Shown in pieces: positions 58,866 to 59,123 of a stretch of 64,000 nt of DNA; positions within the stretch are counted from its first letter, which is position 1, and every line of letters starts with the position of its first letter. The stretch is from Muribaculaceae bacterium (lineage in GTDB: Bacteria > Bacteroidota > Bacteroidia > Bacteroidales > Muribaculaceae). The stretch lies in NCBI GenBank assembly GCA_017462345.1, contig JAFTRI010000007.1, positions 1-64,000 on the forward strand, read 5' to 3'. The notes under the pieces are model-generated. The model saw nothing but the letters and a program-made list of their open reading frames with translations, did not search any database and was not told the origin of the DNA. Made by a program: the position numbers and the translations under genes.

Positions 58866-58897
58866 TTTGGCACTACGGGTCAAACAGTATAATTTTG
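58866..58897 (+). promoter_or_regulatory. promoter of the ilv operon
   Basis: TTTG (58866-58869) and TAATTTTG (58890-58897) are 20 bp apart, a perfect consensus. The transcript would start near 58904, leaving a ~220-nt leader before ilvD. Confidence 0.85.
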
Positions 58898-58927
58898 CAA
58901 CCACAATCCATTTACAGGAAATGCAAT

Positions 58928-59008
58928 ATGAATACCCGATATACGCATCAGACACTATTTCCGCTACCTCTACTGAATGTCGTGGTGGTCGTCTCTATCC
59001 TTCATTAA
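58928..59008 (+). CDS. ilv operon leader peptide (attenuator)
   Basis: A 26-codon frame in the ilvD leader begins MNTRYTHQT and continues [21 protein letters not shown]. It has five Leu, five consecutive Val and one Ile codon, the three end products of the branched-chain pathway, in 26 codons. It lies 31 bases after the -7 box and ends at the first arm of competing hairpins. This is the standard design of ribosome-stalling attenuation in ilv/leu operons of Gammaproteobacteria. It is too short for ordinary gene calling. Confidence 0.85.
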
Positions 59009-59095
59009 GGGGAGAGCAAGCCCGTTGCGTCTATCACAACCAATGACAAAACAACATGATGCCTCCCCTTCCAGCTCCGGCGACAGGGAGGCATC
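59007..59095 (+). terminator. attenuator hairpins (antiterminator and terminator) before ilvD
   Basis: Terminator: GATGCCTCCC (59058-59067) pairs perfectly with GGGAGGCATC (59086-59095), followed by only a short TTT after 5 bases. Competing stem: AAGGGGAG (59007-59014, overlapping the leader-peptide stop) pairs perfectly with CTCCCCTT (59063-59070), which uses the same bases as the terminator 5' arm. A ribosome ending at 59008 would cover the first arm and free the terminator; stalling earlier, in the Val/Leu codons, would allow the antiterminator. Confidence 0.75.
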
Positions 59096-59123
59096 ACAGT
59101 TTAAAATAGAAAGGAACACAATC

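Follow-up and report, generated by a model that had tools for sequence, protein, structure and literature searches.

The enteric ilvGMEDA, ilvBN and leuABCD leaders carry a short frame rich in Val, Leu and Ile codons and an antiterminator and a terminator with one arm in common, placed before ilv genes, and CTA is a favoured Leu control codon in them, the leu leader of Salmonella being an example (PMC1183508). The ilvB motifs (ilvB-II of Corynebacterium, ilvB and ilvB-OMG) likewise combine a frame rich in branched-chain residues with a terminator and an antiterminator and serve the same pathway, and in one ilvB-type leader motif every member contains three or more Val codons in a row (PMC10272879). 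Within the Bacteroidetes, Bacteroid-trp is a listed cis-regulatory motif, included in Rfam (PMC2864571), the Flavobacterium psychrophilum transcriptome is said to give 'strong clues' of leader-peptide attenuation before amino-acid operons (PMC9723704), and a Bacteroides thetaiotaomicron map mentions short frames within long leaders that resemble leader peptides (PMC7366714).

Here we describe an element of this kind upstream of ilvD in a Muribaculaceae bacterium (GenBank assembly GCA_017462345.1, contig JAFTRI010000007.1, positions 1 to 64,000, hereafter the window). It shares the above features of the enteric leaders and differs from them in its first gene, in having no supported 1:2 stem and, in the window, in a very weak U-tract. 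Unlike the ilvB motifs, which precede ilvB and belong to other phyla or lineages, it matches no Rfam family; Bacteroid-trp resembles it as a cis-regulatory leader of a Bacteroidetes amino-acid operon, but serves trp. A first-pass annotation, made from the sequence alone, had called this mode of control little described in Bacteroidota. The trp motif and the Flavobacterium clues leave that wording only partly right. No description of the Bacteroidales ilv element itself was found in the accessible open-licence literature. A 2004 comparative study reportedly covered Bacteroidetes/Chlorobi, and Vitreschak 2004 and Lopatovskaya 2010 are the comparative surveys likeliest to include the ilv element, so we make no claim of first report. 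The kind of system was already known, with hints in the phylum. To this we add, with no claim to priority, an ilv element upstream of ilvD, how far it is spread among Bacteroidales, and its lack of a U-tract in this one lineage.

All parts of the element and the ilv genes lie on the forward strand. Bacteroidetes-type promoters consist of TTTG, about 20 nt and TAnnTTTG, and by eye this arrangement is recognisable at 58866-58897, where TTTG (58866-58869) is separated by 20 nt from TAATTTTG (58890-58897), in line with the promoter that the first-pass annotation had placed at the right distance. Transcription would accordingly be predicted to start near 58904. Upstream of the pair, 57776-58825 holds what we take to be a tryptophanyl-tRNA synthetase-like gene. 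Downstream, a 26-codon leader frame (58928-59008) contains the Val run already noted in the first pass, which aligns with that of relatives, and Val, Ile and Leu make up 9 of 12 consecutive residues. The stretch before the run reads Leu-Phe-Pro-Leu-Pro-Leu-Leu-Asn rather than Leu-Pro-Leu-Pro-Leu-Leu, as the first pass had given it. The control codons span 58955-58993, comprising CTA at 58955, 58964 and 58970, CTG at 58973 and the Val run GTC GTG GTG GTC GTC at 58979-58993.

The first gene under control is ilvD (dihydroxy-acid dehydratase, 59124-60956), followed by ilvB (60983-62707) and ilvN (62714-63265), the last two names being recognised from the translations. Past the window end the gene run continues with genes that, again judged from translations, are thioesterase-like, ilvC and ilvE, and the leader's amino acids match the pathway of this operon. 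The ilvD frame is also open upstream into the leader (58977-59123), forming a 659-codon ORF from 58977. A gene caller could therefore begin ilvD 49 codons early and mask the attenuator, which matters for annotation.

Two alternative pairings follow the frame. The 5' arm of the antiterminator, segment 2 (AAGGGGAGAGCA, 59007-59018), overlaps the leader stop codon and has AAGGGGAG (59007-59014) as its core. Segment 3 (59057-59070) is common to the antiterminator, through 59060-59070, and to a terminator-like hairpin, through 59057-59067, the 3' arm of which is segment 4 (59086-59096), placed by folding and covariation. The first-pass annotation had positioned the competing elements AAGGGGAG and GATGCCTCCC (59058-59067) correctly, and the latter does pair with GGGAGGCATC (59086-59095); its 10-bp stem is in fact one of 11 bp (59057-59067 with 59086-59096), closed by an 18-nt loop and ending 27 nt before the ilvD start. 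Folding of 59007-59070 gave the antiterminator, reaching out to about 59018 with 59060, at -19.5 kcal/mol (z -3.4), and folding of 59015-59096 gave the hairpin at -28.5 kcal/mol (z -4.5), so that the folds of the window contain mutually exclusive pairings with one common arm. When a fold permits both, the terminator-like hairpin prevails over the antiterminator.

The placement of segment 2 recurs across 75 loci, in which it starts a median of 3 nt before the end of the stop codon (range -25 to +16). When segments were swapped among these loci, the pairing of a segment 2 with its own segment 3 averaged 19.6, vs 14.8 with the segments of others, an effect that is weak locus by locus, own pairing falling in the top 5% for just 23 of the 75. 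A protecting 1:2 stem was rejected as a conserved feature, as 5/75 loci reached p<=0.05, which is the chance level for the gapless stems considered. A bulged 1:2 stem is present in the free fold of the window, and some known attenuators are without such a stem.

Support for the element as a unit came from a detector whose score has three summed terms, for how densely Val, Ile and Leu occur in a short ATG frame, for a downstream hairpin and for an antiterminator arm near the frame end. The window scored 70.7, and when its upstream region was dinucleotide-shuffled 2000 times no shuffle reached that value (maximum 56.7). A pass was set at a score of 60 and at least 8 of 12 residues Val, Ile or Leu. 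Of the ilvD upstream regions, 169 were 300 nt or longer and 73 of these passed; in the controls, none of the 169 sequences passed when reverse-complemented, and 1 of 1690 shuffles did. Without the length limit, 74/182 regions passed, distributed as 29/93 in the window's family, 36/80 among named genome loci and 9/9 among other loci of the same order, and none of 18 named loci placed outside Bacteroidota by title did so. Because ilvD upstream regions share ancestry, these counts measure recurrence and not independent origins. At one locus (L006) the upstream sequence is 23 nt long, and another (L172) gave no ilvD match; L031, a repeat of L015, was excluded from the tail and codon comparison, the segment-2 tests and the stem-tail correlation, and two loci below the cut (L005, L009) were added by hand to reach the 75 of the latter two analyses.

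The first-pass annotation had proposed aligning the ilvD upstream regions of relatives, and doing so revealed conserved Leu/Val/Ile-rich frames together with covarying hairpins. In an alignment of 20 chosen leaders the Val run is kept and the remainder drifts. Among 15 Muribaculaceae hairpins, from which three of a neighbouring genus (L123, L133, L134) were omitted as their stems differ or score low, both sides had changed in 6 of 11 stem pairs and 93.9% of cells paired. For a wider alignment of 42 of the 75 hairpins, hand-picked for a like stem so that its figures hold for that subset, the values were 12 of 13 pairs and 92.3% of cells. None of 500 shuffles was as high in the both-side-change measure in either alignment, and when partner columns were offset by one, two or three positions the figures fell sharply in both, the hairpin thus being kept as a pairing.

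Codon choice in the leaders is likewise distinctive. At 52 loci having both leader and gene, CTA accounts for 28% of leader Leu codons vs 3% in ilvD, GTC for 50% of Val codons vs 16%, and ATT is raised from 40% to 69%. In the window leader CTA is used for 3 of 5 Leu codons, vs 6.2% in the window's genes, and each of its five Val codons is either GTC or GTG. According to Elf and Ehrenberg, unequal charging of isoacceptors explains leader codon bias, and CTA is named there for the Salmonella leu leader (PMC1183508). RNA structure could be another factor shaping codon choice in the leaders.

The frame, the exclusive pairings, their recurrence, the covariation of the hairpin and the codon bias are what we observe, and the branched-chain attenuator that the first pass had proposed before ilvD is supported by score, recurrence and covariation. 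We consider it probable that the ilv element is a ribosome-mediated attenuator that responds chiefly to charged Val-tRNA and to a lesser degree to Leu and Ile, and judging from the sequences the putative attenuator is widespread in Bacteroidales. With ample charged tRNA, a ribosome translating the leader would reach the stop codon and cover segment 2, leaving segment 3 to pair with segment 4 and transcription to halt ahead of ilvD. Under shortage of Val or Leu, the ribosome would instead stall on 58955-58993, exposing segment 2 for pairing with segment 3, and with the antiterminator formed RNA polymerase would proceed into ilvDBN-ilvC-ilvE. Of these predicted steps, the stop of transcription is the least certain, as the U-tract is missing in the window's lineage.

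Several points count against this attenuator reading. Many ilvD loci of the family are without the leader by score, a 1:2 stem is not supported, the swap result, favourable on average, is weak per locus, and the window has the weakest tail of 73 attenuators. Loss by score is repeated, having occurred in G003 (locus L007), a member of the window's genus, and in a neighbouring Muribaculaceae group of nine loci (L014, L016-L019, L021-L023 and L026, of which L017 has just 199 nt of upstream sequence).

Doubt about the weak T-run after the hairpin had been voiced in the first-pass annotation, and the weakness is real. Directly after the window stem comes CAGTTTAAAATAG, and the place where a U-tract would be expected (59097-59110) reads CAGTTTAAAATAGA. 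Scored as U-richness across the 15 nt 3' of the stem, counted from 59096, this tail reaches 0.33, the lowest of 73 attenuators, followed by G008 and G005 (0.37 each) and G002 (1.45). Counting by hand from the inner GGC pair raises these four tails to about 1.2 at most. A U-tract is present in most relatives, 57 of the 73 scoring at least 3, and absent from the window hairpin. Thus, while membership in the attenuator family is well supported by sequence comparison, the window hairpin itself is only a putative intrinsic terminator. Other gene-end hairpins of the window with strong stems have tails of 1.98 to 4.54 in 10 of 11 cases, in a scan that admitted loops up to 12 nt as against the 18 of the ilv hairpin; the eleventh, after the gene ending at 56094, scores 0.54. 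At that gene's 3' side, near 56150-56200, lies a very strong 19-bp inverted repeat with no U-tract, perhaps the end of a mobile element.

The genome of the window also has his and phe attenuator candidates, with tails of 4.20 and 3.30 vs 0.33 for ilv, and across the genus the his tails range from 3.18 to 4.81 and the phe tails from 2.86 to 4.98 (11 genomes each); these hairpins were selected by a score that includes the tail, a rule that still selects the window ilv hairpin with its 0.33. On a tree of 30 ilvD loci, with moderate inner support and with the branches around the nine-locus group open or unstarred, tails are strong in the outgroups and weaker in the neighbouring genera, and the nearby nine-locus group has no attenuator by score. 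One further genus member, G011, has T's after an altered stem and a poorer leader (score 55.8, 6/12 residues).

These tails give some weight to a second explanation, which we regard as rather unlikely although the best placed of the alternatives, namely that the sensor is the same and its output changed, the hairpin acting through a factor (Rho, NusA/NusG), through stem strength alone or by lowering ilvD translation. The four lowest tails (window, G005, G008 and G002) follow stems that nonetheless show paired changes, such as T-A in the window vs C-G in G005 and G008 at the base and T-A vs A-T inside, and the same genomes retain U-rich his and phe tails. Weaker tails also accompany stronger stems (Spearman 0.60 over 75 loci, the two measures being partly linked through the setting of the stem end; for L005 this end was set by hand in the tree and stem-tail work, giving a tail of 4.20 instead of 1.45 with the outer pairs taken as stem). 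Against it, the hairpin-to-ATG distance of 24-27 nt in the nine passing genus members is common elsewhere too, and the idea that the hairpin occludes the ilvD start found no backing, as for L001-L004 the predicted openness of that start did not change consistently one way from one state to the other; rows L008 and L012 were uninformative, the antiterminator constraint lying outside the folded piece. A simple switch to occlusion of the ribosome site is therefore not favoured. That this Muribaculaceae lineage kept sensor and switch and dropped the U-tract, the output step now depending on a strong stem, on a termination factor or on translation, is a possibility we hold tentatively and rate a shade higher. 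If it were true, the U-tract-bearing his and phe attenuators of the same genomes would offer a built-in comparison, and the missing U-tract in any case raises the question of what the Bacteroidota RNA polymerase requires for stopping.

It is improbable that the window element is a decaying relic, i.e., an attenuator en route to loss from an operon that is near constitutive or otherwise controlled. The stepwise weakening of tails towards the window on the ilvD tree, the neighbouring nine-locus group without the attenuator by score and the independent loss in G003 would suit such a course, but the window keeps its Val run, CTA codons, antiterminator and 11-bp stem intact, and paired stem changes go on in the tail-poor relatives, indicating that the hairpin is not simply decaying. 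Least probable is that the hairpin, the arms of which are also an inverted repeat in DNA, is the operator of a DNA-binding regulator or a chance palindrome beside a chance short frame, given the shuffle and reverse-complement controls, the G-U pairs retained in the stem (6/15 sequences at one pair), the arm sequence that varies freely while pairing holds and the Val-run frame that precedes the hairpin in relatives.

The attenuator reading also fits its surroundings, as leader-peptide control appears to extend to histidine and phenylalanine/tyrosine in the genus. In the window's genome, hisG is preceded by the frame MIIFIVRHHYHHHSIFI and pheA by MTRFYAYYYSYYFYFSKNKNGILCA, and downstream of both frames come a hairpin and a U-rich tail. 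The his arrangement was present in 11/11 genomes with a hisG match (L226, i.e., G000:C39, and ten other genus members, L217-L225 and L227), His density being modest in some (3 to 5 of 10 residues), and the combination of His-rich frame, hairpin and U-rich tail is likely a his attenuator. The Phe/Tyr arrangement was found in 10 of 11 genomes with a prephenate dehydratase (PDT) match (L241, i.e., G000:C7, and ten other genus members, L234-L240 and L242-L244, with L237 short of upstream sequence); in G011, 109 nt upstream are readable and contain the hairpin without the frame. A Phe/Tyr-rich frame and terminator before the prephenate dehydratase gene likely form a phe attenuator. Both leaders resemble the ilv element in having a short frame rich in their own amino acid, a hairpin and a short gap to the first gene, but they keep the U-rich tails that the window ilv hairpin is without. 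No convincing threonine leader was found before the aspartokinase/homoserine dehydrogenase gene in six genomes. The mechanism would thus be an ordinary one for the lineage, and the comparative evidence points to enteric-style leader-peptide control of branched-chain amino acids in Bacteroidales, the dominant gut order, which is relevant to forecasts of the response of gut commensals to amino acids in the diet.

Searches of Rfam agree with the first-pass description of the element as unannotated, as at gathering score the window gave no match and 20 relatives carrying the element gave no leader or riboswitch match and one tRNA only. A permissive search of 58830-59200 returned BTnc201 in antisense at 19.6 bits (cut-off 105, E 0.44), which we discarded as noise. 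Bacteroid-trp (RF01692) matched in 2 of 41 genomes, once over its cut-off, and in none of the window's family.

Among ilvD upstream regions from other orders of the class, 5/27 passed the cut, the shuffle control having covered the set of 169 described above. Of the five, L203 and L207 look membrane-peptide-like and L205 has a hairpin of A/T only. L198 and L202, from another order of the class, look convincing, with Ile/Leu-rich frames and terminators ahead of an ilvD of another and shorter type, and suggest that the same control reaches beyond Bacteroidales.
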